Of a stretch of 36,801 bases of DNA, positions 6,721-29,095 are shown piece by piece. The notes under the pieces are model-generated. The model made no database searches, was not told the DNA's origin, and saw nothing but the letters and a program-made list of their open reading frames with translations. The stretch's first letter is position 1, and every line of letters begins with the position of its first letter. Both the position numbers and the translations under genes were made by a program. This DNA is from Campylobacter sp. (lineage in GTDB: Bacteria; Campylobacterota; Campylobacteria; Campylobacterales; Campylobacteraceae). The stretch covers positions 1 to 36,801 of the forward strand of contig JAFLRU010000004.1 of assembly GCA_022511325.1 (NCBI GenBank). The letters are read 5' to 3'.

Positions 6721-6769
6721 AATTAAAAAATATTTTAGATCCTGCTTTTTAATTTAAGCTGCATTAAGG

Positions 6770-6775: not shown

Positions 6776-6803
6776 AAAGATTTTAAGAGAAATTGAGGTT
6801 ATA

Positions 6804-8718: not shown

Positions 8719-8751
8719 GTTGAGCTATTTATCAAAATTTAAAGGATAAAA

Positions 8752-8772
8752 ATGAAAGTTTCAATGCGTTAA
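8752..8772 (+). other. six-codon mini-frame with ribosome site between metI and metQ
   Basis: AAAGGATAAAA precedes an ATG that opens only six codons (MKVSMR, then TAA). The pattern of ribosome site plus ATG-AAA resembles the start of a binding-protein gene such as those that follow. From memory, C. jejuni has three such genes here, and only two are intact in this window. It may be the stump of a deleted copy, a leader peptide, or chance. Confidence 0.3.
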
Positions 8773-8837
8773 TTTAAGATGATTGTTCTTAATGTTTAGA
8801 GATAAAGCAAGCACAAAACAATTTTAAAGGAGAAAAA

Positions 8838-9611: not shown

Positions 9612-9626
9612 AGGTCAATAACGAAA

Positions 9627-10400: not shown

Positions 10401-10420
10401 ACAAATAAAGCCTAAAAATT

Positions 10421-10443
10421 CAAAAGCCTCCTAAGGGCTTTTG
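10421..10443 (+). terminator. intrinsic terminator of the methionine-transport operon
   Basis: Arms CAAAAGCC (10421-10428) and GGCTTTTG (10436-10443) pair perfectly around a seven-base loop. The right arm supplies the T-run. It lies 20 bases after the stop of the second binding-protein gene. Confidence 0.75.
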
Positions 10444-10458
10444 TTAAATTTAAAAAAG

Positions 10459-10464
10459 TAAAAT
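10459..10464 (+). promoter_or_regulatory. putative -10 box of flgA
   Basis: AAAGTAAAATTATAAA gives TAAAAT at this position, 26 bases before the flgA ATG. I see no sigma-54 (-24/-12 GG/GC) or sigma-28 motif, so housekeeping expression is the simplest reading. Confidence 0.4.
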
Positions 10465-10490
10465 TATAAAAATTTCATTTTAGGACTTTT

Positions 10491-11153
10491 ATGAATAAAG
10501 TATTTTTTTTTCTCTTTGTTTTTTTAAGTTTTGTAAGTGCTGGAAATTTAGACCAAATCAAAATTGCATTGAACAAAGAATTTACAAATAATTTTCCTAA
10601 GATTATCATCACAAAAATTGATTTAAAAACCTCTCCTTTACCCAAAGATTTTGAAGAATACGAATTTGTAAGATTAGGCAGTGGAAGATTTACGCGTTCT
10701 ATAGGTTTTGGAAGAGCTGAATTTAAAAATGCAAAAAATGAGCAAAAAAATGTTTTTTTTAAATACTTCGTAAAAGCTCGTTTAGAAGCTGTAAAAAGTA
10801 TTTCTGCTATTAAAAAAGATGAAAAATTACAAGCTTTTCATTACAAAGGTGTTTTACTTGATTTTGATAAAATTCCTCTTAATGCCCTTTCTTTAGATGA
10901 TGCACAAAATCTTATCGCCAAAAACAATATCAAAAAAAATACGATTTTAAAAGAAAATATGTTTAAAACAAATGCTTTGATTAAAAAAAACGATCCTATC
11001 ATCGGGGTTTTAAAAGATAAAGGCATTGATGTTTTAATCGAACTTGTTGCTTTACAAAGTGGAAATTTAAATGAAAAAGTGCGTGCTAAAAACAAAGACG
11101 GCAAAGTAATGCAAGGCATAGTTATAGCTAAAGATAGGATACTTTTACAATGA
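10491..11153 (+). CDS. flgA: flagellar P-ring assembly chaperone FlgA
   Basis: The 220-residue product has a signal peptide at residues 1-17 (cut near FVSAG) and a C-terminal SAF-like domain, typical of FlgA. This includes KTNALIKKNDPIIGVLKDKG and a closing KDGKVMQGIVIAKDRILL strand pair. FlgA acts in the periplasm to help FlgI build the P ring of the flagellar basal body. A run of nine T (10503-10511) lies within the signal-peptide codons and could slip. The gene overlaps ubiX by four bases (ATGA). Sequence conservation in FlgA is low, so the call rests on the domain pattern, the signal peptide and the place next to ubiX and coaD, as I remember it in C. jejuni. Confidence 0.85.
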   Translation: MNKVFFFLFVFLSFVSAGNLDQIKIALNKEFTNNFPKIIITKIDLKTSPLPKDFEEYEFVRLGSGRFTRSIGFGRAEFKNAKNEQKNVFFKYFVKARLEAVKSISAIKKDEKLQAFHYKGVLLDFDKIPLNALSLDDAQNLIAKNNIKKNTILKENMFKTNALIKKNDPIIGVLKDKGIDVLIELVALQSGNLNEKVRAKNKDGKVMQGIVIAKDRILLQ

Positions 11154-11707
11154 AAATACTTCTTGGAATTTCAGGTTCAAGCAGCGTTCATTTGGGCTTA
11201 AAACTGCTTGAGAATTTAGAAAAAAAAGCTAAGGTTTTTTGCATCATTACAGAGGGTGCGAAGCTTAGTTTTGAAGCTGAAAACAAAAAAAAGCTCGATA
11301 AAATTTGTAAAAAACGCTTTAAAAAAGTGGTTTTTTTTGAAGATAACGACCTTAAAGCTGCGGTTTCAAGCGGCTCTTTTGGCATAAAAAAAACCATTAT
11401 CGCTCCTTGTTCTATCTCAACTCTTGCTAAAATTCACGCAGGCATTAGTGATACTTTGCTTACAAGAGCTTGTGCTGTAGCTTTAAAAGAACAAAAAAAA
11501 CTCATTTTAGGAGTTAGAGAAATGCCTTTAAGCTTTTTGAGTTTAGAACAAATGACAAAACTAAGCTCACAAGGAGTTTGCATTGCACCTCCTATTTATG
11601 CAAGTTATAGCGGAGTTAAAGACTTAGAGGATTTAGAAAATTTCATTGTAGGAAAATGGCTTAATTTGCTTAAAATCAAGCACAATTTATTCAAAAAATG
11701 GGACTGA
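11150..11707 (+). CDS. ubiX: flavin prenyltransferase UbiX
   Basis: This 185-residue flavoprotein makes prenylated FMN, the cofactor of UbiD-type decarboxylases. The N-terminal phosphate-binding loop is LLGISGSSSVHLGLKLLENL. The central part carries the AAVSSGSFGIKKTIIAPCSISTLAKIHAGI block with the conserved PCS, and later VREMPLSFLSLEQM. This is the standard UbiX/Pad1 order. Campylobacter makes menaquinone, probably by the futalosine route, whose UbiD-like step needs this cofactor; that link is knowledge of the pathway, not seen here. It overlaps flgA by four bases and is therefore probably translated with it. Length is typical. Confidence 0.92.
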   Translation: MKILLGISGSSSVHLGLKLLENLEKKAKVFCIITEGAKLSFEAENKKKLDKICKKRFKKVVFFEDNDLKAAVSSGSFGIKKTIIAPCSISTLAKIHAGISDTLLTRACAVALKEQKKLILGVREMPLSFLSLEQMTKLSSQGVCIAPPIYASYSGVKDLEDLENFIVGKWLNLLKIKHNLFKKWD

Positions 11708-11755
11708 TTTTTAATAAATTTTTCCAAAAAACATTTTAATTTAAGTCGTTTTGAG

Positions 11756-11761
11756 TAAAAT
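11756..11761 (+). promoter_or_regulatory. putative -10 box of the coaD-cysE operon
   Basis: TTTTGAGTAAAATATAC contains TAAAAT 24 bases before the coaD ATG at 11786. It lies in the only gap (78 bases) between flgA-ubiX and the next five overlapping genes. Confidence 0.45.
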
Positions 11762-11785
11762 ATACATTTTAAATTGGGAGAATTT

Positions 11786-12262
11786 ATGACTTGTTTATAC
11801 CCGGGAACTTTTGATCCCATTACAAATGGACATTTAGATGTAATTGTTAGGGCTTTAAAAATTTTTGATAAAGTCATTGTAGCCATTGCTAAAAGTGAGC
11901 ATAAAAGCCCTCATTTTAGTTTAGAAAGGCGTAAAGAATTCGCAAAATTAGCTACGAAAAATTTAAAAAATGTAGAAATCATTAGCTTTGAAAACTTGCT
12001 GGTGGATTTGGCTAAAGAACTTAATATCAACACCGTAATAAGAGGGCTTAGAGCGGTGAGTGATTTTGAGTATGAGCTCCAAATTGGCTACGCAAATAAT
12101 GCTCTTTGGAAAGAATTTGAAACCGTTTATTTAATGCCAAATCTTAAAAATGCTTTCATTTCAAGCTCTATAGTGCGTTCTATCATTTCACACGGAGGCG
12201 ACGCAAGTAGCCTTGTGCCAGGTGAAATTCTGCCTTTTTTAAAGGATGAAACTTGTATGTAG
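11786..12262 (+). CDS. coaD: phosphopantetheine adenylyltransferase
   Basis: This 158-residue enzyme transfers AMP to 4'-phosphopantetheine, the penultimate step of coenzyme A synthesis. The nucleotidyltransferase motif [14 protein letters not shown] has TNGH at 13-16. The substrate-loop motif [13 protein letters not shown] follows, and the second nucleotide signature is [11 protein letters not shown] chose the ATG at 11786, where a GGGAG ribosome site lies six bases upstream and the family homology starts. The frame is open to a TTG at 11774, but that would put the ribosome site inside the gene. It overlaps tmk by ten bases. Length is exactly typical. Confidence 0.96.
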
Positions 12263-12834
12263 CCATTGAGGGAATTGATTGTATGGGAAAAAGCACACAA
12301 ATTAGACTCTTAAAAGAAAAATTTAAAAATGCAATTTTCACACAAGAACCCGGTGCAACAGAGCTTGGAAAACATTTAAGAAAACTTTTACTTCACAAAA
12401 GCTATGCTTTTGGGAAAAAAACTGAACTTTTACTTTTTTTGGCTGATCGTAGTGAGCATTACGAAAAAATTTTAAGTAAAAATAAAAACAAGCTTATTAT
12501 TAGTGATAGAAGTCTGATTTCAGGTTTGGCTTATGCAAAAGGTTTTGATAAAAATTTTCTTTTTGAGCTTAATGCTTTTGTCTTAAATCATTTTTTTCCT
12601 GAAAAAATTATATTTTTAGAGGGTTCTAGAGAACTCATAGAAAAAAGGCTTTCTAAAAAAAGACTCGATAGTATAGAAAAACGCGGAATAGAATATTTTA
12701 TTGAAATTCAAAAAGAACTCAAACAAAGTCTGATTTTCATTGAAAAAAAAATCAAAACTAAAATTTTAAACCTCAATGCCGCAGACACAAAGGAGAATTT
12801 ACATAAACAAATAAAGGACTTTATCGATGATTAA
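12253..12834 (+). CDS. tmk: thymidylate kinase (TTG start)
   Basis: This 193-residue kinase phosphorylates dTMP to dTDP. The P-loop [10 protein letters not shown] is at residues 6-15, the DR motif is in FLADRSEHY, and the later [15 protein letters not shown] block binds thymidylate. The start is a TTG at 12253: an AAAGGA ribosome site lies seven bases upstream, and the protein begins MYVAIEGID exactly where the family does. An ATG four bases later is out of frame and is the penultimate codon of coaD. It overlaps coaD by ten bases and hisS by eight, so translation is likely coupled across all three genes. Confidence 0.95.
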
Positions 12835-14053
12835 TGCTTTAAGAGGAATGAAAGATTTAGAAGGTAAAAACGCTTTTTATTACGAAAAAATCATCAAAAC
12901 TTGTGAAGAAGTGGCAAAAAATTATGGTTTTAGTTTTATTGCAACCCCTCATTTAGAACTTAGCAAACTCTTTAAACGAAGCGTTGGAGAAAGCTCTGAT
13001 ATTGTCGGGAAAGAAATGTATGAATTTATTGATAAAGGTGGCAATGAAGTTTGTTTAAGACCTGAAGGCACTGCAGGAATTGTGCGTTCTTATATCGAGC
13101 AAAAATTTGATAAAACTGGGAGTGTTAAACGTTGGTTTTATCACGGCTCTATGTTTCGCTACGAAAGACCACAAAAAGGACGTTTGAGAGAATTTCATCA
13201 ATTTGGAGTTGAAAGTTTTGGAAATCAAAGCGTGTATGAAGATGTGAGTTTGATACTAATGTTGGCTGAAATTTTTAATCGCCTTGAGATTAAATTTAAA
13301 CTCTTGCTTAATTCTTTAGGTTGCGTCTCCTGTTTGCCAAATTACCGCGAAAAACTTGTAGCTTTTTTAAACACCAAAGAAAATTTATGCGAAGATTGCA
13401 AAAGACGCATAAAATTTAATCCTATACGCGTTTTAGATTGCAAAAACGAGCATTGTGGGGAACTTCTAAGCAATGCACCTCTTTTAAATTCAAGTCTTTG
13501 TGAAACTTGCAAGAAGGATTTTGAACTTTTACAAAATGCTCTTAAAGATAATGATATAGACTTTGAGCTTGATTTTAGGCTTGTGCGTGGGCTTGATTAT
13601 TATAGCAAAAGTGCTTTTGAGTTTATCAGCGATGAAATTGGTGCAAAAGCTGCGATTGCAGGAGGTGGTAGATACGACAAACTCATCGAGCATTTAGAAG
13701 GAAAAAGTGGCTTTGGTATAGGTTTTGCAATAGGTATTGAAAGACTCATTGCAATCTTAGAACAAAAAGAGCAAGAAGCCTTAAGAGAGGGAATTTATCT
13801 TTGTGCTTTAGACGAACTTTATATCCCAAAACTTCTAAAAATTGCTACCAAGTTAAGAAAAAACAGAAAAGTATTTTTATCTTATGAGGCTAAAAAACTT
13901 GCAAAACATCTCTCAAACGCAGATGCTATAAATGCTCAAATTTTCTTATGTATGGGTGAAAATGAAGCTAAAAACAATGCTTTATTTTACAAAAATTTAG
14001 AAAATAAAACCGAAAAAGAACTTTTGATTATAAATTTGGAGAAAGAATTATGA
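12827..14053 (+). CDS. hisS: histidyl-tRNA synthetase
   Basis: This 408-residue class II synthetase charges tRNA-His. Motif 1 and the following loop (VGESSDIVGKEMYEF), the ATP-binding LRPEGTAGIVRSY, motif 2 RYERPQKGRLREFHQFGVE and the His-specific LVRGLDYYSKSAFEF are all present, as is motif 3 (FGIGFAIGIERL). The insertion domain carries several Cys pairs (CVSC, CEDC, CETC) that may bind zinc. The C-terminal anticodon domain is short, which fits the proteobacterial size range. The ATG lies within the last codons of tmk, and the stop overlaps the speA start by four bases. Confidence 0.97.
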   Translation: MINALRGMKDLEGKNAFYYEKIIKTCEEVAKNYGFSFIATPHLELSKLFKRSVGESSDIVGKEMYEFIDKGGNEVCLRPEGTAGIVRSYIEQKFDKTGSVKRWFYHGSMFRYERPQKGRLREFHQFGVESFGNQSVYEDVSLILMLAEIFNRLEIKFKLLLNSLGCVSCLPNYREKLVAFLNTKENLCEDCKRRIKFNPIRVLDCKNEHCGELLSNAPLLNSSLCETCKKDFELLQNALKDNDIDFELDFRLVRGLDYYSKSAFEFISDEIGAKAAIAGGGRYDKLIEHLEGKSGFGIGFAIGIERLIAILEQKEQEALREGIYLCALDELYIPKLLKIATKLRKNRKVFLSYEAKKLAKHLSNADAINAQIFLCMGENEAKNNALFYKNLENKTEKELLIINLEKEL

Positions 14054-15879
14054 TGGATTATGGCATAGACATTTGGGGTGATGATAATTTTATCATTAAA
14101 AACGGCAAGGTTTGCGTAAATTACGAAAAAAAACCTGCAATCATTGATATAGTCAAAAGCTTAAGAAATGATGGTTATAGAGGACCTTTACTTCTTCGTT
14201 TTCCTCATCTTATCCAAAAGCAAATTGAAAATATTTATGGAAGTTTTAATAAAGCCAGAAAAGAATTCAACTATAAAGGAAAATTTAATGCTGTTTATCC
14301 TCTTAAGGTTAATCAATATCCGGGTTTTGTTAAAAATCTTGTAAAGCTTGGAAAGGATTATAATTACGGACTTGAAGCAGGCTCCAAAGCTGAACTTTTA
14401 CTTGCTATGGCTTATAATAATGAAAATGCACCTATAACGGTCAATGGCTTTAAAGACAGAGAACTTATAAACATAGGTTTTATCGCCGCTGAAATGGGAC
14501 ATAATATCACTTTAACCATAGAGGGTTTAAACGAACTTGAAGCTATTATTGATATTGTCAAAGAAAGATTTCAACCAAAACCAAATATAGGATTAAGGGT
14601 GAGATTGCATTCTGCTGGAATAGGAATTTGGGCAAAAAGCGGAGGGATAAATTCTAAATTTGGGCTTACTTCAACCGAACTGATAGAAGCTGTAAATTTA
14701 CTTAAAGAAAATAAACTTTTAGAACAATTTACTATGATACATTTTCATTTGGGTTCGCAAATTAACGAAATCCATCCCTTAAAAAAAGCTCTTAATGAAG
14801 CAGGAAATATATACACAGAACTTAGAAAAATGGGAGCAAAAAATTTAAAAGCCATTAATCTAGGTGGCGGTTTAGCCGTGGAATACTCACAATTTAAAAA
14901 CGAAAAAAGCAGAAATTACACCTTAAAAGAATACGCTAATGATGTGGTTTTTATCCTTAAAAATGTCGCTGAACAAAAAAGTGATTTAGAGCCTGATATT
15001 TTCATAGAAAGCGGACGCTTTATTGCTGCAAATCACGCTGTTTTAGTTGCTCCTGTTTTAGAACTTTTTTCACAAGAATATACAGAAAGCAAACTGCTTT
15101 TAAAAAAGGATAATCCAAAGCTCATTGACGAGCTATATGACCTTTATAAAAGTATCAAAGCTTCTAATGCCTTAGAATACTTGCACGATAGTATAGATCA
15201 TTTAGAAAGTATTTTAACGCTTTTTGATTTAGGTTATGTGGATTTAAAAGACCGCTCTAATGCTGAAATTTTAACGCATTTAATTGCTAAAAAAGCCATT
15301 TCACTTTTGGGAGATAAACAAGCAGATTTACTTGCAATCCAAGATGAGGTGCAAGAAAGATATTTGGTGAATTTTTCACTTTTTCAAAGTATGCCTGATT
15401 TTTGGGGATTAAAACAAGGTTTTCCTATTATGCCACTTCATCATCTTGATGAAAAACCTACAAGAAGTGCGAGTATTTGGGATATTACTTGTGATAGTGA
15501 TGGAGAAGTTTCTTATTCTAAGGATAATCCTCTATTTCTGCACGATATTGATGTGGAAAAAGAAAACTATTTTTTAGGCTTTTTCTTAATCGGTGCTTAT
15601 CAAGAGGTTCTTGGAATGAAACACAATCTCTTTATCCACCCTACTGAAGCAACTATTAGCATCAATGAAAAAGATTATAAAATCGAAAACATCATTGAAG
15701 CACAATCTATCCTTGATACTTTAGAGGATTTAGACTATGATATACACGAAGTTATGGATATTTTAAATGAACGTATTTCAAGCTCAAAGCTTGTTAATGA
15801 AAAACAAAAAAAACATATTTTAGGAGAACTTTATCTTTTCTTAAATGATAATGGCTATCTTAAGAGTATAGGAGTATAA
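14050..15879 (+). CDS. speA: biosynthetic arginine decarboxylase
   Basis: This 609-residue PLP enzyme converts arginine to agmatine, the entry to polyamine synthesis. It is of the alanine-racemase-fold (SpeA) type: the PLP lysine is Lys86 in NAVYPLKVNQYPG. Later features include FGLTSTELIEAV, HFHLGSQINEIHPLK, NLGGGLAVEY and ESGRFIAANHAVL for phosphate and substrate binding, and a C-terminal barrel with TCDSDGEV. In Campylobacter, agmatine leads to putrescine and then spermidine by the carboxyspermidine route (pathway knowledge). Two ATG codons stand at the start, and either could serve. It overlaps hisS by four bases, and cysE starts one base after its stop. Confidence 0.96.
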   Translation: MMDYGIDIWGDDNFIIKNGKVCVNYEKKPAIIDIVKSLRNDGYRGPLLLRFPHLIQKQIENIYGSFNKARKEFNYKGKFNAVYPLKVNQYPGFVKNLVKLGKDYNYGLEAGSKAELLLAMAYNNENAPITVNGFKDRELINIGFIAAEMGHNITLTIEGLNELEAIIDIVKERFQPKPNIGLRVRLHSAGIGIWAKSGGINSKFGLTSTELIEAVNLLKENKLLEQFTMIHFHLGSQINEIHPLKKALNEAGNIYTELRKMGAKNLKAINLGGGLAVEYSQFKNEKSRNYTLKEYANDVVFILKNVAEQKSDLEPDIFIESGRFIAANHAVLVAPVLELFSQEYTESKLLLKKDNPKLIDELYDLYKSIKASNALEYLHDSIDHLESILTLFDLGYVDLKDRSNAEILTHLIAKKAISLLGDKQADLLAIQDEVQERYLVNFSLFQSMPDFWGLKQGFPIMPLHHLDEKPTRSASIWDITCDSDGEVSYSKDNPLFLHDIDVEKENYFLGFFLIGAYQEVLGMKHNLFIHPTEATISINEKDYKIENIIEAQSILDTLEDLDYDIHEVMDILNERISSSKLVNEKQKKHILGELYLFLNDNGYLKSIGV

Positions 15880-15880
15880 A

Positions 15881-16510
15881 TTGGGATTTTGGAGCATTAT
15901 TAAAGAAGATTTTGAACAACCTAAAAATCAAGACCCAGCTTTTAATTCTCGCGTAGAGCTTTTTTTTAATTATCCGGGTGTTTGGGCTATTGTTAATTAT
16001 CGTTTTGCACACTTGCTTTACGAAAAAAATTTCAAACGTTTAGCAAGAATTATCAGTGGATTTTCTCAAATCATTACAGGAGTGGATTTACACCCTGAAG
16101 CTAAGATTGGAAGACGCGTGTTTTTAGACCACGCAAATGGCATTGTAATAGGACAAACAACAGTTATCGAAGACGATGTTTTAATTTATCAAGGTGTAAC
16201 TTTGGGTGCAACGAGCTTAGAAAGAAATATCAAAAGACACCCTACCATTAAAAGTGGTGTTATCATCGGTTCAGGAGCTAAAATTCTTGGCGACATTACC
16301 ATAGGGGAAAATGCAAAAATTGGCTCAAATGCCGTGGTGGTTAAAGATGTCGGTGCGGGTTTAACCGCAGTTGGAATTCCAGCTTATATAGTTGAACACA
16401 ATAAAAAGAAAGAAAAAAGTCGTGCTATAGACGAGCTTTGCGAAAATAAACTCGATAAACTTGAAAGCGAACTTTTAGAGCTTAAAAAGAAAATTAAAAA
16501 AACAAAATGA
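15881..16510 (+). CDS. cysE: serine O-acetyltransferase (TTG start)
   Basis: This 209-residue enzyme acetylates serine with acetyl-CoA, the first step of cysteine synthesis. The N-terminal helices (FNYPGVWAIVNYRFAHLLYE) are followed by a left-handed beta helix of hexapeptide repeats from about residue 65 to 165, including LDHANGIVIGQTTVIEDDV and GVTLGATSLE with the catalytic His region. The last 35 residues are a charged coiled coil. The start is TTG at 15881, with GGAG six bases upstream; it is one base after the speA stop. No other in-frame start fits. It is the last gene of the coaD operon, and a small hairpin follows. Confidence 0.94.
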   Translation: MGFWSIIKEDFEQPKNQDPAFNSRVELFFNYPGVWAIVNYRFAHLLYEKNFKRLARIISGFSQIITGVDLHPEAKIGRRVFLDHANGIVIGQTTVIEDDVLIYQGVTLGATSLERNIKRHPTIKSGVIIGSGAKILGDITIGENAKIGSNAVVVKDVGAGLTAVGIPAYIVEHNKKKEKSRAIDELCENKLDKLESELLELKKKIKKTK

Positions 16511-16538
16511 AAATTTTAGATTTCTTAGCTTACCACTC

Positions 16539-16556
16539 CTAAAATCGCAATTTTAG
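16539..16556 (+). terminator. weak hairpin after cysE
   Basis: Arms CTAAAAT (16539-16545) and ATTTTAG (16550-16556) pair around a four-base loop CGCA. There is no long T-run after it, so termination may be partial. Confidence 0.4.
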
Positions 16557-16600
16557 TTAAATAAACTCAAAATAAAAGTCAAAAATTTAATAATTTTAGC

Positions 16601-16606
16601 TAAAAT
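16601..16606 (+). promoter_or_regulatory. putative -10 box of aspB
   Basis: TTTTAGCTAAAATAATAAAA contains TAAAAT 24 bases before the aspB ATG. A very similar stretch, GGCTAAATAATAAAAAATT, precedes the ankyrin gene near 31695-31713. Confidence 0.45.
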
Positions 16607-16630
16607 AATAAAAAATTCTAAGGATAAAAA

Positions 16631-17803
16631 ATGTTAAGCAAAAGATCGCAAGTTTTAGGAGAATCCATAACTCTAGCCATTACAGCTCTTGCTAATGAAC
16701 TTAAAGCAAAAGGTGAAAATGTTATTAGTTTTTCCGCAGGCGAACCTGACTTTGATACCCCGCAAATCATCAAAAATGCAGCCATTAAAGCCATAGAAAA
16801 AGGTTGTGGAAAATATACAGCAGTTGCTGGTATAAACGAAGTTTTAGAGGCAATAAAAAATAAACTTAAAAAAGATAATAAACTTGATTATGAACTTAAA
16901 GAAATCATCACAAATGTTGGAGCTAAACATTCTTTATTTGAGTGCATTGAATGCTTAGTTGAAAAAGGCGATGAAGTAATAATCCCAAGTCCATATTGGG
17001 TGAGTTATCCTGAAATGGTAAAATTTGCTGAGGGAGTGCCTGTTTTTATTGAAGGCTTAGAAGAAAATGGTTTTAAAATTACAGCAAATCAGCTTCAAAA
17101 GGCTATCACTCCTAAAACCAAACTTTTGATTTTAAACTCACCCTCAAATCCTGTGGGTTCTATTTATTCTAAAGAAGAACTTACTGCCTTAGCAAAGGTT
17201 TTAGAAGGCACAAAGATAATAGTTTTGAGCGATGAAATGTATGAAAAACTCCGCTATGATAATGTAGAATTTCACGCTTTTGCAAGCATAAGTGAAGATG
17301 CCTTGCAAAGATGCGTTACGATTAATGGACTAAGCAAATGTGGAGCTATGCCTGGTTGGCGTTTTGGCTATATGGCAAGTAAAAATAAAGATTTAATTTC
17401 AGCTGTAAAAAGACTACAAGGGCAAAGCACCTCAAATATTTGTTCTATCACTCAACACGCAGCCATTGTTGCACTCAATGGAGAATGCGATGCAGATATA
17501 GAAAATATGAGAAAAGCCTTTGAAAAAAGACGCAATATAGGCTTAGAAATGTTAAATAAAATTCCAAATATTAATGTTTATAAACCTGAAGGAGCTTTTT
17601 ATTTTTTCGTTAATATTTCTAAAATTGAAAAAGACTCTATGAAATTTTGTCAAAAATTGCTCGAAATTCAAAAAGTTGCTGTGGTTCCTGGGGTTGGTTT
17701 TGGAATGGAAGGGTATTTTAGAATTTCTTATGCAACAAGTGAAGAAAACATCAAAGAAGGACTGAAAAGAATTACCGAATTTATTAAAAGCTATAAATCT
17801 TAA
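16631..17803 (+). CDS. aspB: aspartate aminotransferase (class I, AspB type)
   Basis: This 390-residue PLP enzyme interconverts aspartate and oxaloacetate with glutamate and 2-oxoglutarate. Fold-type I landmarks: SAGEPDFDTP near residue 36, YTAVAGINEV, substrate-binding NSPSNPVGSIYSKEEL, SDEMYEKL with the PLP aspartate, Lys236 in TINGLSKCGAMPGWRFGY forming the Schiff base, and an Arg in FRISYATSEE binding the carboxylate. The start has an AAGGA ribosome site. It is transcribed alone between hairpins. In amino-acid-using Campylobacter it joins aspartate and glutamate catabolism to the citric acid cycle, which is family knowledge. It is the last gene of the first syntenic block. Confidence 0.95.
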   Translation: MLSKRSQVLGESITLAITALANELKAKGENVISFSAGEPDFDTPQIIKNAAIKAIEKGCGKYTAVAGINEVLEAIKNKLKKDNKLDYELKEIITNVGAKHSLFECIECLVEKGDEVIIPSPYWVSYPEMVKFAEGVPVFIEGLEENGFKITANQLQKAITPKTKLLILNSPSNPVGSIYSKEELTALAKVLEGTKIIVLSDEMYEKLRYDNVEFHAFASISEDALQRCVTINGLSKCGAMPGWRFGYMASKNKDLISAVKRLQGQSTSNICSITQHAAIVALNGECDADIENMRKAFEKRRNIGLEMLNKIPNINVYKPEGAFYFFVNISKIEKDSMKFCQKLLEIQKVAVVPGVGFGMEGYFRISYATSEENIKEGLKRITEFIKSYKS

Positions 17804-17818
17804 AGATTTGTAGCTTTT
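17786..17818 (+). terminator. strong intrinsic terminator of aspB with the stop codon as loop
   Basis: Fifteen-base arms at 17786-17800 and 17804-17818 pair with a single mismatch. The three-base loop is exactly the TAA stop codon of aspB. The right arm ends in TTTT, followed by GTTTT. Confidence 0.8.
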
Positions 17819-17829
17819 GTTTTCAAAAA

Positions 17830-17993
17830 ATTTATGACTTTGTTAAAGCTTCCTAGAAATATTTTTCTATGGTTATTTTTGTGTAATTTCTGTAATCACC
17901 CTCTTTTATTTTGGTTTAATTTGCTTAATAAATATTATCGCTATTTATAAATCTCGTCGACTAGAACACAATCAAAGAAATATAAAGGTTTAA
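17830..17993 (+). pseudogene. remnant of a small membrane-protein gene
   Basis: A frame open at 17847-17993 has no start codon but reads as a sensible small protein end: LEIFFYGYF, a hydrophobic helix of about 25 residues, then a basic tail IYKSRRLEHNQRNIKV. Just upstream in another frame, KIYDFVKA would join it naturally if one base were restored near 17850. No ribosome site or start is visible further up, and the aspB terminator begins there. A competing ATG frame (17834, MTLLKLPRN) shifts away and looks less protein-like. I read it as a frameshifted and 5'-truncated gene at the edge of a rearrangement. I do not recognise its family, and a genuine unusual gene is possible. Confidence 0.4.
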
Positions 17994-18011
17994 TTTCATT
18001 GAACGACCTTT
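17984..18011 (-). terminator. inverted repeat between the gene remnant and psd
   Basis: AAAGGT (17984-17989) and ACCTTT (18006-18011) are reverse complements around a 16-base spacer, 23 bases beyond the psd stop. They could form a weak hairpin ending the minus-strand phosphoesterase-psd transcript. Confidence 0.25.
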
Positions 18012-18033
18012 AATTAATAAAACAAAATTTCAA

Positions 18034-18843
18034 TCAAATAAAATCTGCGATTTTAGAGCCAAATTTAAGTTCATCAGTATTTTTTATATTGAAATTTAAA
18101 TGTCCTTTTTGTGAGATTAAAACTATAGTAGAACCTAGTTCAAAATACCCTAACTCCTCGCCTTTTTTAAATTTTAAATTTTCATAGACACGGCTAAAAT
18201 TATGAGAATTTTCAGCATTAGTTTTAATGCTTTCATCAAAATGAAAACGCATTTTACCTACATTTTGAGCTCCGACAAAAACAAGCCAAAAAATAAAACC
18301 TTTTTCACTTTTGCACTTTAAACTCACTCTTTCATTTTTCGTATAAAGATTGGAAATTTTCTCCAAATGCTTTTGATTGACGCTATAAAGTGAACCTCTT
18401 GTATAAACAGCTTTAAGAATTTCTAAATCACAAGGAGCGTGATAACGATGATAATCCTTAGGTGAAAGATAGATATTGACATAATCAAGCCCATTTTGAG
18501 TTTCATTTTTTTCGAAATTTTCTTTTAAAAGTTCCTCTACGCTATAAGTATGCCCCTTGATGCTGAAAGCAAAATACTCATCTTCAGCCAAAAAAGCTTG
18601 TCCGCTTTGAAACACCCTACCATCACTTGGGCTTATAAAACCACTTTCAAACTCACGAGTTTTTTGCAAGCTCCTTGTAAAAAGAGCATTAAGGCTCTCA
18701 TATTCACTAGGAGCTTTAAATTCACTCATATCGATTTTAAAATATCTTACATAATTTTCATTGATGAAATTTTGCAAAGGTTTAAAGAATTTAAATCCCG
18801 CTATAAGCCCAAAAAGCTTTGAACTTTGATTTGAACAACTCAT
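18034..18843 (-). CDS. psd: phosphatidylserine decarboxylase proenzyme
   Basis: This 269-residue membrane-associated enzyme makes phosphatidylethanolamine from phosphatidylserine. The self-cleavage site that generates the pyruvoyl cofactor is LGST, with Gly237-Ser238, in GYFELGSTIVLI. The catalytic aspartate is Asp74 in SPSDGRVF, and the conserved histidines are in SPKDYHRYHAPCD (residues 127-139). Length fits the short bacterial form. Its ATG overlaps the stop of the phosphoesterase gene by four bases, so the two form an operon. It is the first gene of the second syntenic block, and the DNA beyond its 3' end carries the small-gene remnant. Confidence 0.95.
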   Translation of the reverse strand: MSCSNQSSKLFGLIAGFKFFKPLQNFINENYVRYFKIDMSEFKAPSEYESLNALFTRSLQKTREFESGFISPSDGRVFQSGQAFLAEDEYFAFSIKGHTYSVEELLKENFEKNETQNGLDYVNIYLSPKDYHRYHAPCDLEILKAVYTRGSLYSVNQKHLEKISNLYTKNERVSLKCKSEKGFIFWLVFVGAQNVGKMRFHFDESIKTNAENSHNFSRVYENLKFKKGEELGYFELGSTIVLISQKGHLNFNIKNTDELKFGSKIADFI

Positions 18844-19961
18844 TCTTGTGCCTTTAAAGTTATAATCACAATTTCACTTTGAGCAAAGGTTCGAATACTA
18901 GGTCCCCAAAATCCAGCTCCAGTGCTAACAAAAAGTTTAGTTTTTTCACTTAAATCATAAAGCCCTCTAATAAAACCTTGATTGAGTTTTACCAAAAACA
19001 TAAAAGGAAAAATTTGCCCTCCGTGAGTGTGTCCGCTTAAAACTAAATCAAAATCACTCAAATCATAAAGTGAAGCAGTTTTAGGCTGATGAGCAAGTAA
19101 AATGCTTGGCTTGGAAGTATCTAAATCTACTTTAACTCTTGCTAAATCAGGAGCATAAATTCCTTTTTGTAAGCCTGCTAAATCACCAAGTCCAGCGATA
19201 TTTATAAAACCTAAATCGAAATTTTCATTGATTAAAATATTCATTTTGGTATTGTTTTTTAATAGCTCTAAAACTTCATTAATGCCGTGATAATACTCGT
19301 GATTTCCAAAAACATAAAAAGTGCCATATTTGGACTTAAAATCATCAAGTTTTGAAATATAATGCTCTAAATTTTTAGGTTCTGTATCCACTAAATCACC
19401 AACAATCATTACCATATCAGGCTTTTGCTCATTGACTTTGACAATGAGTCCTTCTAAAAAATCCTCGTGTAAATTCTTACCCAAATGTATATCACTAAGA
19501 ACAGCAATTTTTAAATCTTGTTTTAATCCTGCGATTTTTAGTTCTAGGTTTCTTACTTCAGGAATATTAAGAGCATTTTGAATGCTTGTGTAAGTTAAAA
19601 AAGCTCCTAAGGCAATAAATATTAAATCTAAAAGAATGCGTAAAGAAATGTGAGGAGTTTTGTATTTACCCGACAAAAGCAAAATAAGTTTAATTACATC
19701 AATGATTAAAGTCATAAAAAATAAGCAATAAGTTGGTGCATAAAGCATAGCCAAAAAGCCATACACTTCATCACTTAAAAATTCTACATTTCTTAAAAGA
19801 AAAAAAGACGCTTGAATAACAAAAAGTAAGCTTAAAATCGGAATAAAAATTTTGTGAAAATATTTAAAAATAAAGATTTTTTTAATCAATCTTTTATACA
19901 CATAAATATTAGCCAAACCAAAAATCAACGATACCACAAGGGAAAAAATTAAAAACATCAT
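18840..19961 (-). CDS. membrane-anchored metallophosphoesterase (YkuE/YaeI type)
   Basis: The 373-residue protein has about four hydrophobic segments within residues 1-125 and a calcineurin-like phosphoesterase domain from about 148 to the end. The two-metal site is visible: Asp157 and His159 in LSDIHLGKN, Asp189 in IVGDLVDTE, Asn220 and His221 in FGNHEYYHG, then a His in LLAHQPKT and both His of LSGHTHGGQIF. Relatives hydrolyse phosphodiesters or pyrophosphates of lipids at the membrane, which would suit the coupling with psd, but the substrate is unknown. The start is a double ATG at 19961/19958 with no ribosome site. A TATAAT box ends only seven bases upstream, so the mRNA may be leaderless. 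Confidence 0.88.
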   Translation of the reverse strand: MMFLIFSLVVSLIFGLANIYVYKRLIKKIFIFKYFHKIFIPILSLLFVIQASFFLLRNVEFLSDEVYGFLAMLYAPTYCLFFMTLIIDVIKLILLLSGKYKTPHISLRILLDLIFIALGAFLTYTSIQNALNIPEVRNLELKIAGLKQDLKIAVLSDIHLGKNLHEDFLEGLIVKVNEQKPDMVMIVGDLVDTEPKNLEHYISKLDDFKSKYGTFYVFGNHEYYHGINEVLELLKNNTKMNILINENFDLGFINIAGLGDLAGLQKGIYAPDLARVKVDLDTSKPSILLAHQPKTASLYDLSDFDLVLSGHTHGGQIFPFMFLVKLNQGFIRGLYDLSEKTKLFVSTGAGFWGPSIRTFAQSEIVIITLKAQE

Positions 19962-19968
19962 AAATATA

Positions 19969-19974
19969 ATTATA
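19969..19974 (-). promoter_or_regulatory. perfect -10 box seven bases before the phosphoesterase ATG
   Basis: The minus strand reads CTTGTTATAATTATATTTATGATG. TATAAT at this place would start transcription at about 19960-19962, that is, at or next to the first ATG, giving a leaderless message. Confidence 0.5.
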
Positions 19975-20010
19975 ACAAGTGAAATTAAATATTTGTATAG
20001 TTTTTTTTGT

Positions 20011-20016
20011 TATAAT
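20011..20016 (+). promoter_or_regulatory. extended -10 box of the gltX operon
   Basis: TTTTTGTTATAATTAGC gives TATAAT with an upstream TGn and a T-rich run, 32 bases before the gltX ATG. Confidence 0.65.
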
Positions 20017-20048
20017 TAGCTTTTTTACAAAATTTAATAAGGTTTTTA

Positions 20049-21344
20049 ATGTATCGTTTTGCACCCTCTCCAACAGGAGATATGCACATAGGAAATTTAC
20101 GAGCTGCTTTGTTTAATTATATTTGTGCCAGACAAGAAAATACAGATTTTGTTTTACGCATTGAGGACACAGATAAAGCAAGAAATATTGAAGGAAAAGA
20201 AGAAGAAATCAAAGAAATTTTGAAGCTTTTTGGCATAAAATGGCAGCACTTTTATATACAAAGTGAAAATTTAAAATTTCATCGTCAAATGGCTTTAAAG
20301 CTTGTAAGTGAAAAAAAGGCTTTTGCATGTTTTTGCACAGAAGAAAAACTTGCAAAGAAAAAAGAAGAAGCAAAGAAAAAAGGCATAGCTTACAGCTATG
20401 ATGGAACTTGTGAAAATTTAAGTGATAGCGAGGTTTTGGACAATGAAAAACCCTTTGTAATCCGCCTTAAAAAACCTAAAGAGAGTATTAAATTTACAGA
20501 TTTTATTAAAGGAGAGCTTACTTTTGAGCCACAAAATTTAGATTCTTTTGTGATTATGAGGGCAGATAAAACCCCGACTTATAATTTTGCTTGTGCGATT
20601 GATGATATGCTTGAAAATATCACTTGCATTATACGCGGGGAAGATCATACTTCTAATACACCCAAACAAGAGCATATACGTCAAAGTTTGGGTTATGAGC
20701 AAAAAATGACTTATGCTCACTTACCTATTATTCTTAACGAAGAGGGCGTCAAGATGAGCAAAAGAGAAGCTCACTCAAGTGTAAAATGGCTTTTGGAAAA
20801 TGGAATTTTACCCGAAGCGATTATTAATTATCTTATTATGCTTGGTAATAAAACTCCTTGCGAAATTTTTACCCTAGAAGAAGCTTTATCTTGGTTTAGT
20901 CTTAAAAATCTTTCTAAAGCTCCTGCAAGATTTGATCTTAAAAAACTTTTGCAAATCAATAGAGAACATATCAAAAAACTTAACAACGAAAGCCTAAATT
21001 CACTTTTAGGCTTTGAAAAAGACCTTGCTGATTTGGCTAAGTTTTACACTCAAGAAGCAAGCACTCTTAATGAAATCAAAGAAAAATTAAAACTTATCTT
21101 TGCTCCAAAAGATTTTAAAGAATTTAAAGAAGAATGCGAAATTTTGATAAAAACACTTAAAGAACATTCTTTAGAAGAAAATTATGAGGATTTTAAAAAA
21201 GCTTTAATGCAAAAAACAGGACTTAAAGGTAAAAATTTCTTTATGCCTTTAAGACTTATTTTAACTGGCAATACTCACGGACCTGAACTTAGCGATTTAT
21301 ACCCGCTTATTAAGCCTTTTATTGCTGATTTAGTAAGGATTTAA
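20049..21344 (+). CDS. gltX: glutamyl-tRNA synthetase (short, GluRS2-like)
   Basis: This 431-residue class I synthetase begins [19 protein letters not shown], with HIGN at 13-16. KMSKR lies in [14 protein letters not shown], and the GluRS signature ARIEDTDK-like block appears as [12 protein letters not shown]. Cysteines in CFCTEEK and DGTCENL could bind zinc. Epsilonproteobacteria usually carry two GluRS proteins and no GlnRS. One copy (GluRS2 in Helicobacter) charges tRNA-Gln with glutamate for later amidation by GatCAB. The short length and missing N-terminal extension suggest this is such a second copy, which is inference since the other copy is not in the window. It leads an operon with yggT and slt, each spaced 1 base or overlapping. 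Confidence 0.93.
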
Positions 21345-21345
21345 T

Positions 21346-21627
21346 ATGATATTTGACTCTTTAATTTTTTCTATTGTTTCTATCATTCAAATGGTGATTT
21401 CAATTTATACTTGGATTATTATCATTACAGCTCTTTTAAGTTGGGTAAATCCTGACCCTTACAACCCTATCGTGCAAATTTTATACAAACTTAGTGCTCC
21501 AGCTTATGAACTCGTGCGTAAAATTCCAACTCGCATAGGAAGCATAGATTTAGCACCTTTAATCATTGTTTTAGCCTTACAATTTATTAGTATCTTTCTT
21601 GGAAAATTAGTAGGGAGTTTATTATGA
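21346..21627 (+). CDS. YggT family integral membrane protein
   Basis: This 93-residue protein has two hydrophobic helices (about residues 8-30 and 68-90). Between them is the family signature SWVNPDPYNPIVQIL and a following LSAPAYELVRKIP. YggT/Ycf19 proteins are linked to membrane organisation and osmotic tolerance, but no biochemical activity is established. It starts one base after gltX and its stop overlaps the slt start by four bases. The place beside a lytic transglycosylase suggests a cell-envelope role, as inference only. Confidence 0.9.
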   Translation: MIFDSLIFSIVSIIQMVISIYTWIIIITALLSWVNPDPYNPIVQILYKLSAPAYELVRKIPTRIGSIDLAPLIIVLALQFISIFLGKLVGSLL

Positions 21628-23225
21628 GAAAAATTCTATTTTTAAGTTTTTTCACTTTAAGTCTTTTTGGCTATGAATACAGCTTAGATACCTTAAAAAA
21701 GCAAGAAAATTCTTTGGCTAAAGATTATTATATTTATAGACTGGCAGAAAAACATTCTTTAAATGTAAAAGATGTTAGAAGCCTTAGAGCCCATATTTTT
21801 CATTATGCAGGAAAACTTAAAACTGAACTTAGCAAAATCGCAGCTGTAAAACCTTATGTAGATCCAAAAACAGCTGTGTGTTTTAATTATAACAAACAAA
21901 GCATAATTGATGCGAATTTAACTTGTCAAAGCGAAAGATTAAAATCTCTTCTTTTTATTTCAAGCCTAACTCCCCAAACAAGAAACATTTTAGCTAAAAA
22001 ATTAAGCACAACAAGAGCGGATTTAAGTACTCTTTTACTCGCTTTTAACACTCCAAATCCTATGGCTTATGTCATGCAAAAAGAAGATACGAATAGTTTT
22101 TTTAGGCTTTATAATTATTCAAAAAAAATGGATGCGGATTTAAGTATACGTTTTCTTAATAAACTCGCATCTCACCCTTCTTTTAAAACTTTTGCACAAA
22201 ATATCATCATCAAAAAAGAAAATCCAAAAATAAGACATTCTTTACTTCAAATCAAACCCATTTCAGCAAATGAAGATTCTGCCTTTTATCTTGGAATTAA
22301 TGCTCTAATTTATCAAAATGAAAATTTAGCTTATGAGTTTTTCAAAAGAGCTTATGAAACTTTTGGAACGCAAGAAAATAAAGACAACGCTTTATTTTGG
22401 ATGTGGCTTATCAAAAAAGAACCTGCATTGCTTGAAAATTTAGCTAAAAGCGAGGGGATTAATATCTATAATCTTTATGCCAAAGAGCTTTTAAATAAAC
22501 CTTTACCAAAGATTACTACCCCAAATCCAAGCAAAGAAAAAACTTCTTTTAATATGCAAGATCCTTTTGCGTGGCAAAAGCTTTTTAAAGAGATTAAAAA
22601 CTCTGATGAGGCTAAGCTTTTAAAACTCGCAGAGCAATTTAACAGCAAAGAAACCTTGCCTATTTACACCATAATCTTAGAAAGAGCCCATAAATTTAAG
22701 AAAAATTATTTTATAATGCCTTATTATGAGCATATCAAAAATTACGATACTCAAAGACAAGCCCTTATTTTAGCAATAGCAAGACAAGAAAGTCGCTTTA
22801 TCCCAACAGCCATTTCAACTTCTTATGCCTTAGGCATTATGCAATTTATGCCATTTTTAGCCAATCATATCGGTAAAAAAGAACTTAAAATTCCAAATTT
22901 TGACCAAGATTTTATGTTTGAGCCTAAATATGCTTATGAATTTGCCAATTATCATTTAGATTATTTGGAAAAGCGTTTAAATTCCGTGCTTTTCATAGCT
23001 TACGCATACAATGGCGGTATAGGTTTTACAAACAAAATGTTAGCAAGGGAAGATATGTTTAAGGCTGGAAAATTCGAGCCTTTTTTATCAATGGAGCTTG
23101 TGCCTTACCAAGAAAGCCGTATTTATGGGAAAAAAGTTTTAGCTAATTATATTGTATATCGACATCTTCTGAACGATAATACAAAGATTTCGAATATTTT
23201 TCATAATTTAATTCAAAACAAATAG
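21624..23225 (+). CDS. slt: soluble lytic murein transglycosylase
   Basis: This 533-residue periplasmic enzyme has a signal peptide at residues 1-17 and a long helical superhelix domain. The C-terminal SLT domain starts near residue 375, with catalytic Glu389 in IARQESRFIPTAIS, then LGIMQFMPFLANHIG and IAYAYNGGIGFTN. It cuts the glycan strands of peptidoglycan, forming 1,6-anhydro-muramyl ends. It overlaps yggT by four bases. Its last 83 bases run antisense to the end of a convergent lipoprotein gene. C. jejuni has a comparable slt in the same setting, as I recall. Confidence 0.94.
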   Translation: MRKILFLSFFTLSLFGYEYSLDTLKKQENSLAKDYYIYRLAEKHSLNVKDVRSLRAHIFHYAGKLKTELSKIAAVKPYVDPKTAVCFNYNKQSIIDANLTCQSERLKSLLFISSLTPQTRNILAKKLSTTRADLSTLLLAFNTPNPMAYVMQKEDTNSFFRLYNYSKKMDADLSIRFLNKLASHPSFKTFAQNIIIKKENPKIRHSLLQIKPISANEDSAFYLGINALIYQNENLAYEFFKRAYETFGTQENKDNALFWMWLIKKEPALLENLAKSEGINIYNLYAKELLNKPLPKITTPNPSKEKTSFNMQDPFAWQKLFKEIKNSDEAKLLKLAEQFNSKETLPIYTIILERAHKFKKNYFIMPYYEHIKNYDTQRQALILAIARQESRFIPTAISTSYALGIMQFMPFLANHIGKKELKIPNFDQDFMFEPKYAYEFANYHLDYLEKRLNSVLFIAYAYNGGIGFTNKMLAREDMFKAGKFEPFLSMELVPYQESRIYGKKVLANYIVYRHLLNDNTKISNIFHNLIQNK

Positions 23226-23634
23226 TCTCATTGACGCAAATTATAGTTTTAAGGCTCGTTTCGCTTTTTACACTTGGAAGAGAAATTTTAAAATAATCTG
23301 AAAATTCATTACTAATGAGATATTTTAAAAGCTCATCATTTGCACTTAAAAGCTCTATATTTGCAAGTTTATTATTGACAAAGACTTCTAGTTTTTCTAT
23401 ATCAAGAGTGTTTGGAGTGATAGTAAGGGTAAAAACATCATCTTTACTTTTTAAATCTAAAACAGGATTAAGATAACTCATCGTAAAAATCGCACTTGTG
23501 CCATTAATATCGACTTTTTGTTTTTGGGAAAACATCAAAGTTTGAGTTTTTAAATTTGTTGCAACGACTTGCTCATCTTTTAAAGAACAAGCACCAAGCA
23601 AAAAAAGACTTAAAAATAAGCTATAAATTTTCAT
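23143..23634 (-). CDS. small outer-surface or periplasmic lipoprotein of unknown function
   Basis: The 163-residue product starts MKIYSLFLSLFLLGAC: a lipoprotein signal with lipobox LGAC and Cys16 as the lipidated residue. The rest is mostly beta-strand-like and polar, with no motif I recognise. I chose the ATG at 23634, which has GGAAG about eight bases upstream; the frame is open four codons further, but that start is worse. Residue 17 is Ser, not Asp, so sorting to the outer membrane is more likely than inner-membrane retention by E. coli rules. Its last 83 bases lie inside the end of slt on the other strand. Confidence 0.85.
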   Translation of the reverse strand: MKIYSLFLSLFLLGACSLKDEQVVATNLKTQTLMFSQKQKVDINGTSAIFTMSYLNPVLDLKSKDDVFTLTITPNTLDIEKLEVFVNNKLANIELLSANDELLKYLISNEFSDYFKISLPSVKSETSLKTIICVNETICFELNYEKYSKSLYYRSEDVDIQYN

Positions 23635-23660
23635 TTTATCTTCCAAAAATTTTTAATCTA

Positions 23661-23666
23661 ATTGTA
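23661..23666 (-). promoter_or_regulatory. putative -10 box of the lipoprotein gene
   Basis: The minus strand reads TATAGCTACAATTAG, with TACAAT 26 bases before the ATG at 23634. Confidence 0.45.
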
Positions 23667-23699
23667 GCTATATTAATCCTATTTTTTGCTTTAAAAAGA

Positions 23700-23705
23700 T
23701 ATAAT
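23700..23705 (+). promoter_or_regulatory. -10 box of mobB
   Basis: AAAAAGATATAATTTTC carries a perfect TATAAT 38 bases before the mobB ATG, divergent from the lipoprotein promoter. Confidence 0.55.
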
Positions 23706-23743
23706 TTTCAAAAAATTTCAAAAACAAGGCAAATATATAAACT

Positions 23744-24223
23744 ATGCAAAGAAAAATCATAGCCTTTAGCGGTCCTTCAAATTCAGGAAAAACAACACTG
23801 ATAACAAAAATTGCAGATAAATTTATTAAAGAGGGCTTAAAAATTATTATTATCAAACACGATCCAAGTGATAAAGCACAATTTGATTTTAATGGTAAAG
23901 ATAGTTTTAAATTTTTTCAAAGTGGGGCTGAAGTAATGGTTTTAAGCCCTACTCGCACGACTTTTTTTTCTCATCAACAAAGAAGTGTCTTAGAAAGCCT
24001 TAAAATGATAGATGATTTTGATTTATGTTTAGTTGAAGGTTTAAAAAACCTTGATTTACCACGCATTAGTGTTTTTTGCAAAAAAATTGATGAAAGCTAT
24101 TTTAGTTTTTCAAACGCGGTTGCAAGTTATGAAAAAATCGAATATAAAAATTTAAAATGGCTTGATTTAAATGATTTAGAAAGCATTTGTACTTATATAC
24201 TTGAAAATGCTAAAATTTTATAA
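23744..24223 (+). CDS. mobB: molybdopterin-guanine dinucleotide biosynthesis protein MobB
   Basis: This 159-residue GTP-binding protein has P-loop GPSNSGKTT at 10-18. The MobB family patterns are LKIIIIKHDPSD with the conserved KH, FDFNGKDSFKFFQSGAEVM and LVEGLKNL. It assists MobA in attaching GMP to molybdopterin for enzymes such as nitrate or formate oxidoreductases. The ribosome site is poor; an AAGG lies about 14 bases upstream of the ATG. It is followed by fbp after 13 bases, probably co-transcribed. Confidence 0.9.
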   Translation: MQRKIIAFSGPSNSGKTTLITKIADKFIKEGLKIIIIKHDPSDKAQFDFNGKDSFKFFQSGAEVMVLSPTRTTFFSHQQRSVLESLKMIDDFDLCLVEGLKNLDLPRISVFCKKIDESYFSFSNAVASYEKIEYKNLKWLDLNDLESICTYILENAKIL

Positions 24224-24236
24224 CTAAGGAGAGTAG

Positions 24237-25076
24237 ATGCAAGAACTTATTTCTTTTATCAAACAAGCGGTTTTACAAATCTCAAATGAGCTTAAATTTC
24301 CAGATACAAGCTATGAAAAAAGTCAAAATCATACGGGTGATACTCAACTTAAATTTGATATTTTAAGTGATAAAATCATCGAAAAAACTCTAAGTAAATG
24401 TCCTAAAATTAAAGCTTTAATCAGTGAAGAAAAAGAAGAAATGCTTATTATCAATGAAGGAGCAGAATTTATCGTTGCTTACGACCCCCTTGATGGCTCC
24501 TCTTTAATGGATGTTAATTTTGCTATAGGTTCCATCTTTGCAATCTATGAAAAAAATCCTAAAGCTTCAAATTTAAAAGCAGCTGTGTATAGCATTTATG
24601 GAGCAAGACTTGAACTTGTAATTTGCGAAGACATTCCTAAACTTTATCGTCTTAATCAAAACAATGAATTTATCTTAGTTAAAGAGCTAAAAATGGAACA
24701 AAAAGGCAAAATTAATGCCACAGGTGGAACACAAAAAAACTGGGATTTAAAACACGCAACTTTTATCAAATCTTTATTTGATGAGGGATACAGATTAAGA
24801 TATTCAGGAGCTATGGTAAGCGATATACACCAAATTTTACTCAAAGGAGGAGGAATTTTTAGTTATCCAGCTACAAAAGATTCTCCACAAGGTAAATTGA
24901 GGGCATTTTTTGAGGTTTTTCCTTTGGCTTTTATCCTTGAAAAAGCTGGAGGTAAAACAAGTAATGGGCAAAATAATTCTTTATTAGAGCTTGAATTTAA
25001 CGATATACATTCTACCACGCCTTGTTTTTTTGGCTCAAATTATGAAATTCAAAAACTTTTAAAGGCTTATCAATGA
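24237..25076 (+). CDS. fbp: class I fructose-1,6-bisphosphatase
   Basis: This 279-residue enzyme hydrolyses fructose-1,6-bisphosphate in gluconeogenesis. The metal-binding motif [13 protein letters not shown] has D83-S89, and SEEKEE supplies the upstream acidic ligands. The substrate-binding stretch [20 protein letters not shown] and the closing [15 protein letters not shown] are typical. Campylobacter generally relies on gluconeogenesis rather than sugar use, so the enzyme is expected. The start has a strong GGAG ribosome site. It ends by a four-base overlap with the small Cys gene, so the two are translationally coupled. Confidence 0.95.
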
Positions 25077-25267
25077 ACGAAAGAGATGAATTTGAACAAG
25101 AAATGGATACAAAAAAAGAACTTTTAGAGCAATGTCAAAGCTCAAAAAACTTAAATTCTTGCTATAATTGTGCTGAACTTTTTGACTGCCTTACGCGTAA
25201 AGATTATGTCGATGCAGTTTATAATAGTATGTCTAAGGGTAAAACCGAAGGCGGATTTGATTTTTAA
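25073..25267 (+). CDS. small cysteine-containing protein of unknown function
   Basis: This 64-residue protein has a charged N-terminal helix, and four cysteines at 21, 30, 33 and 39 ([22 protein letters not shown]). The spacing C-x8-C-x2-C-x5-C could hold a metal ion or a cluster, or form disulfides. I do not recognise the family. C. jejuni carries a small hypothetical at this place. It overlaps fbp by four bases and precedes metG by eight, so it is part of this operon. Its conservation within an operon and good coding character support it as real. Confidence 0.8.
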
Positions 25268-25275
25268 GGAAAAAT

Positions 25276-27156
25276 ATGCGTTATATCACTACACCGATTT
25301 ATTATGTCAATGATGTGCCGCATTTAGGGCACGCTTATACAACCATAATTGCGGATACTTTAGCAAGATTTTATCGTTTGCAAGGTTTTAAAACTTGTCT
25401 TTTAACAGGAACAGATGAACACGGGCAAAAAATAGAACAAGCCGCAAAAGCAAGAAATTTCACTCCTAAAGAATACGCTGATACTATCAGCTCTGAATTT
25501 AAAAAACTTTGGGACTCATTTGAAATCAGCTATGATATTTACGCTAGAACAACAGATTTAAGACATATAGAATTTGTTAAGTCAATGTTCTTAAAAATGT
25601 GGAAAAAAGGAGATATATACAAAGATAAATATGAAGGATTTTATTGTATTTCTTGCGAAACTTTTTTCACTAAAACCCAACTTGTAAATGAAAATTGCTG
25701 TCCTGATTGTGGTAAAAAAACTGAACTTTTAAAAGAGGAAAGTTATTTTTTCAGACTTTCAAAATACCAAGATGCTATTTTAAAATGGTATGAAGAAGCA
25801 GACCCTATTTTGCCTAAAAACAAAAAAACTGAACTTATCAATTTCGTTCAAAGCGGCTTAAAAGACCTTTCTATAACAAGAACAAGTTTTGATTGGGGTA
25901 TAAAACTCCCTGATGAAATAAAAGATGAAAAACACATCATTTATGTATGGCTTGACGCACTTTTTATTTACATAAGTTCGCTTGATTATGGAACAAATGG
26001 AGAAAATGCAAAATTTTGGCCTGCTCATTTGCACTTAGTGGGTAAAGACATTTTGCGTTTTCACGCCATTTATTGGCCTGCTTTTTTAATGAGTGTTGAT
26101 TTACCTTTACCTAAATTTATAGGAGCTCACGGCTGGTGGACTAAAGACGGCGAAAAAATGAGTAAATCTAAAGGCAATGTTATAAAACCTAAAGAAGTTG
26201 CAGATACTTATGGCTTGGAAACTTTTAGATATTTTTTATTGCGTGAAGTGCCTTTTGGAAATGATGGAGACTTTAGCGAAGCTGTGCTGATAAACCGCAT
26301 AAACTCCGAACTTAGCAATGAATTTGGAAATTTGCTTAGTCGCATTATAGGAATGAGCTCGAAATATTCAAATGGTATAATTTCAAATGAAGGAATTTTA
26401 GAAAATTTCAAAGCTGAACTTGATTTAGCGCAGAAATATCTTGAAGATTCCATAGCTTTTTTAGAAAATTTGCAACCTAATCGCTATTTAGAAGAACTTT
26501 TTAAGGCTTTAGGTATTGCGAATTTAAGCATTGCTAAGTATGAACCTTGGAATTTAATCAAAAAAGGTGAAGAGAAAAAAGCTAATGCTTTGGTTGGACT
26601 CTGTGCAAATATTTTGGCTAAAGTAAGTATCTTGCTAAGCCCTACCCTACCAAAAAGCACGCAAAAAGTTGCACAGGCTTTAAATTTTGAGATTAGCACA
26701 AATACCTATCAAGCTTTAATCCTAGAAAAAAAGCTTTCAAATTTTAAAGCAAATGCGTGGGAAGCTTTATTTACTAAGATTGAAAAACCGCTTTTAGCCA
26801 CAAAAACCCCACCGCAACAAGAGCAAGAACAAAAAATCAAAATTGATGATTTTGCTAAAATTGAAATCAAAGTTGCTACGGTAAAAGCTTGCGAAAATAT
26901 AGAAGGAAGCGAAAAGCTCTTAAAATTTCAGCTTGAACTTGAAAATGGGGAGTTAAGACAGGTTCTTTCAGGTATAGCAAAACATTATAAGGCAGACGAG
27001 CTTGTCGGTAAGCAAGTGTGCGTTATTACCAATCTTAAGAAAGCCAAAATTTTTGGCTACGAAAGTGATGGTATGATACTTTCAGCTAAAAGTGGAGACA
27101 AACTTGTGTTAATAGGTCCTAATGAGCTTGTATTAAATGGCTCAACGATAGGCTAG
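25276..27156 (+). CDS. metG: methionyl-tRNA synthetase
   Basis: This 626-residue class I synthetase charges initiator and elongator tRNA-Met. HLGH is at 16-19 in PIYYVNDVPHLGHAYTT, and KMSKS at 294-298 in GEKMSKSKGNVIKP. The connective peptide carries CISC and CCPDC zinc knuckles. From about residue 525 a C-terminal EMAP-II-like tRNA-binding domain follows (FAKIEIKVATVKACENIEG, then GKQVCVITNLKKAKIFGYES). The ribosome site AAGGA is well placed. It lies between the small Cys gene and a hypothetical gene that begins one base after its stop. Confidence 0.97.
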   Translation: MRYITTPIYYVNDVPHLGHAYTTIIADTLARFYRLQGFKTCLLTGTDEHGQKIEQAAKARNFTPKEYADTISSEFKKLWDSFEISYDIYARTTDLRHIEFVKSMFLKMWKKGDIYKDKYEGFYCISCETFFTKTQLVNENCCPDCGKKTELLKEESYFFRLSKYQDAILKWYEEADPILPKNKKTELINFVQSGLKDLSITRTSFDWGIKLPDEIKDEKHIIYVWLDALFIYISSLDYGTNGENAKFWPAHLHLVGKDILRFHAIYWPAFLMSVDLPLPKFIGAHGWWTKDGEKMSKSKGNVIKPKEVADTYGLETFRYFLLREVPFGNDGDFSEAVLINRINSELSNEFGNLLSRIIGMSSKYSNGIISNEGILENFKAELDLAQKYLEDSIAFLENLQPNRYLEELFKALGIANLSIAKYEPWNLIKKGEEKKANALVGLCANILAKVSILLSPTLPKSTQKVAQALNFEISTNTYQALILEKKLSNFKANAWEALFTKIEKPLLATKTPPQQEQEQKIKIDDFAKIEIKVATVKACENIEGSEKLLKFQLELENGELRQVLSGIAKHYKADELVGKQVCVITNLKKAKIFGYESDGMILSAKSGDKLVLIGPNELVLNGSTIG

Positions 27157-27157
27157 A

Positions 27158-28105: not shown

Positions 28106-28122
28106 GAGGAGAATTTATTTAG

Positions 28123-29076: not shown

Positions 29077-29095
29077 TTTTTATCCTTTTACTTGC

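Follow-up and report, generated by a model that had tools for sequence, protein, structure and literature searches.

The 230-bp gap between aspB and psd in this Campylobacter sp. genome is very probably an ordinary chromosomal rearrangement junction behind two converging genes, and its content a terminator hairpin followed by a non-coding spacer. The window that we analyzed is the entire contig C90 (36,801 bases). The draft genome to which it belongs comprises 155 contigs with a total of 1.245 Mb, at 89.5% completeness. On the plus strand, aspB (16631-17803) encodes a class I/II aminotransferase of 390 aa (PF00155, E 7e-71) and closes a block that runs from tpx. On the minus strand, psd (18034-18843) encodes a phosphatidylserine decarboxylase of 269 aa (NF003038, E 2.8e-115, above the cut-off of the family; PF02666) and opens a block that extends to trmA. 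The two genes are thus arranged tail to tail and, since aspB ends at 17803 and psd at 18034 on the opposite strand, positions 17804-18033 are the space separating two 3' ends. The AspB protein is 84-86% identical to its nearest jejuni/coli-type orthologues, which identifies the organism as a Campylobacter related to C. jejuni and C. coli; identity amounts to 75-86% across most of the genus and to 68-71% in the lari-type group. In a tree built from AspB and Psd it also falls close to the jejuni/coli group. The closest sister is weakly supported (49%), so that the branch on which the rearrangement occurred can be placed only approximately.

The earlier note took the aspB and psd blocks to be separated in C. 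jejuni, and comparison with C. jejuni subsp. jejuni 414 (hereafter C. jejuni 414) confirms this. Window positions 383-17798 are colinear with positions 714122-695035 of that genome and positions 18082-36493 with 774900-757049, the 3' ends of aspB and psd being there the outer ends of one segment of about 80 kb, whereas the two blocks are contiguous here. The distance between the two genes is about 78-80 kb in jejuni/coli-type genomes; as in C. jejuni 414, it is about 80 kb in G015, G026 and G031. It rises to 139-308 kb in G004, G017 and G027, whereas G032 has about 73 kb and the lari-type group about 8 kb, with both genes on the same strand. We did not find aspB next to psd among 58 relatives, as judged where both genes share one contig, and wherever the direct 3' neighbours of either gene could be read in relatives they were other genes. 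The possibility that this adjacency is simply the normal order in the closest relatives, which would have spoken against a breakpoint, does not therefore apply.

The neighbours themselves are variable. In most jejuni/coli-type and lari-type genomes, fhlB2 (TIGR00789) overlaps or abuts the psd stop codon, tail to tail, and the genes found 3' of psd in one species or another include fhlB2, icd-like, tpx and heavy-metal-ATPase-like genes and others, several of these names having been given by eye. Behind aspB, likewise with several names given by eye, stand a gene for a 113-aa cupin-like protein (no family match), dnaK, rpiB-like and tgt-like genes or a binding-protein gene; dnaK directly adjoins the 3' end of aspB in Campylobacter sp. 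MIT 21-1684 (G014) and in G005. We also observed in MIT 21-1684 a 104-aa exported-looking gene between psd and fhlB2 (L044, 2368-2682), and in C. jejuni 414 (L166, 6643-14928) a type I restriction-modification-like cluster that, together with metallo-hydrolase-like and cupin-like genes, separates dnaK from aspB. The ends of the window deserve a mention as well. At its left end (1-312, minus strand), the start of a glf-like gene (by eye a UDP-galactopyranose mutase, with a match to NAD_binding_8 at E 1.5e-20) lies beside tpx, the partner of which is napA in C. jejuni 414, and this makes a second non-jejuni junction in the window. At its right end (36490-36801, minus strand), a 66-residue open piece beyond trmA has no Pfam match and no match to the compared C. 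jejuni 414 region.

The gap begins with a hairpin. It spans the aspB stop codon (17786-17818, plus strand), so that the first 15 bases of the gap belong to it, and is followed by GTTTT; its 16-nt arms are 94% complementary and its folding energy is -16.6 kcal/mol (z -5.4), a stability that no shuffled sequence equalled. Comparable hairpins are found just 3' of the aspB stop codon in several relatives, and we consider this one as the probable intrinsic terminator of aspB. A G+C-based terminator scan did not call it because the T run is short and the stem rich in A+T. On the psd side of the gap, we found no significant structure (z -0.2), and a search of the gap as RNA against Rfam returned only matches far under the gathering scores. 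With the low-complexity filter off, blastn aligned 66 bp of this side with C. jejuni 414 (E 6e-4), which we dismissed as an AT-rich chance match. The remainder of the gap looks like an AT-rich non-coding spacer.

This reading differs from that of the earlier note, which saw in the gap a small membrane-protein gene broken over two frames, without a start, and took the damage as a mark of the junction. The quoted peptides are indeed present in the sequence. The main plus-strand open frame (17847-17993) has 48 residues and ends in FYGYFCVISVITLFYFGLICLINIIAIYKSRRLEHNQRNIKV; the second frame, likewise on the plus strand and of 48 residues, does hold an ATG, which opens an ORF of 38 aa (17834-17950). 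By eye, no purine-rich ribosome-binding sequence precedes this start codon, and immediately 5' of it is the hairpin. What favours a decayed gene is that the two hydrophobic frames overlap and that the main one is more hydrophobic than most shuffles: the value is slightly to moderately unusual, being reached in 0.6% of shuffles at a frame length of at least 40 and in 2.5% at any length of at least 20, for a frame that was picked after inspection. This is also the one observation that stands against a purely non-coding spacer. When the gap is shuffled with its dinucleotides preserved, on the other hand, 26% of the shuffles contain a frame of 48 codons or more, and codon usage is poor. As controls we took from real genes of the window 34 hydrophobic segments of 48 codons each, which are membrane segments. 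Their full codon score averages +10.2 bits with a minimum of -6.8, whereas the main frame scores -10.3, below all of them, and the second frame -8.0; by synonymous codons only, the scores are -5.2 for the main frame and +1.1 for the second, against a control minimum of -0.2.

Homology searches, carried out with the open pieces unaltered (no base inserted or removed), gave no significant homologue in the 58 relatives. The best matches there had E 0.0019, with an internal stop in the target, and E 0.005 at 27% identity on contigs carrying neither aspB nor psd. Pfam and NCBIfam gave no match, for the 38-aa ORF as for the open frames, and plasmids (best E 2) and phages nothing credible. A gene damaged when the junction formed is accordingly not supported, the frames being short, without relatives and without the codon preferences of the host, and a decayed small membrane-protein gene appears to us unlikely. 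Still less probable is that the gap encodes a small hydrophobic peptide of 38 or about 48 aa specific to this species, either newly formed or decayed. The plus strand of the gap is 43% T, and codons for Phe, Leu, Ile and Val are therefore favoured; the open frames could well be a chance product of such a T-rich stretch, whose translation is hydrophobic. A word of caution follows for similar cases, as T-rich spacers can mimic membrane-protein fragments.

We then have to ask whether the joint itself is genuine. The other half of the break could be located: fhlB2 lies on another contig, C82, tail to tail with gmhA (L165, 3437-4327). Since this contig is colinear beyond fhlB2 with positions 774945-782769 of C. 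jejuni 414, the psd-fhlB2 joint of C. jejuni is here split over two contigs; the genome has one copy of psd and a single close aspB, so the ancestral joint has not been kept elsewhere. The gmhA-fhlB2 junction was not seen in the relatives that we read, in which other genes follow gmhA, with LOS-type genes nearby. As for the genes that follow aspB in relatives, dnaK is on contig C77, 370 bases from the contig end, with no aspB end in those 370 bases, which puts its new neighbour past the end of C77; a search of this genome for the 113-aa cupin-like neighbour did not find it. The gap compared with the junction ends of C77 and C82 gave only short chance matches.

An assembly chimaera would be conceivable in a draft broken into 155 contigs, but we regard it as improbable, somewhat more so than a decayed gene. 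An independent contig resolves the second side of the break between psd and fhlB2, and divergence from C. jejuni is similar in both blocks. The longest exact repeat shared between the gap and the rest of the genome is about 17 bases, and a repeat-driven misassembly is consequently unlikely, no repeat being long enough to mislead an assembler. Least of all can we retain a tandem duplication or an excised circle of the segment bounded by psd and aspB, the ends of which, correctly oriented and lying at the outer limits of one stretch of about 80 kb in C. jejuni 414, would give exactly such a joint: we rejected it on the copy number of psd and on the fhlB2-gmhA joint, by which the original psd-fhlB2 joint is gone, and at tpx, where the aspB block ends on its other side, the partner is the glf-like gene instead of napA, so that the segment is not intact.

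Altogether, because fhlB2 and gmhA are joined on an independent contig and both psd and the close aspB are single copy, the data support a true rearrangement rather than a duplication or a misassembly, and the past rearrangement that the earlier note suspected is borne out by a psd separated from its usual partner, itself placed at another junction. The evidence that the junction is real is good but not complete; in a draft assembly of this kind, the junctions of the event are seen in part. We propose for the rearrangement that one or more inversions or transpositions could have broken the DNA in the tolerated space 3' of the genes. Such breakage would have left both aspB and psd whole, and the gap would then consist of the aspB terminator hairpin and AT-rich non-coding spacer.

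A new joint of this type is ordinary for the genus, because the 3' neighbours vary between species, poor synteny has been published and a second non-jejuni junction exists at the left end of the window. The 3' ends of aspB and psd have changed neighbours repeatedly across Campylobacter; block breaks thus fall again and again behind the same genes, leaving them unharmed, and this matters little. Gene-order reshuffling of such kind is already known in these bacteria. C. lari and C. upsaliensis show little if any synteny with C. jejuni RM1221 (Fouts et al. 2005, PMC539331), and the rearrangements reported between species resemble the present one in that conserved blocks are reordered relative to C. 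jejuni. They differ from it in the particular joint, the aspB-psd junction not having been found in the relatives searched. The genes at the joint are the same as those in C. jejuni 414 and the lari-type genomes, but psd usually faces fhlB2 there, whereas in this genome psd faces aspB and fhlB2 faces gmhA on another contig.
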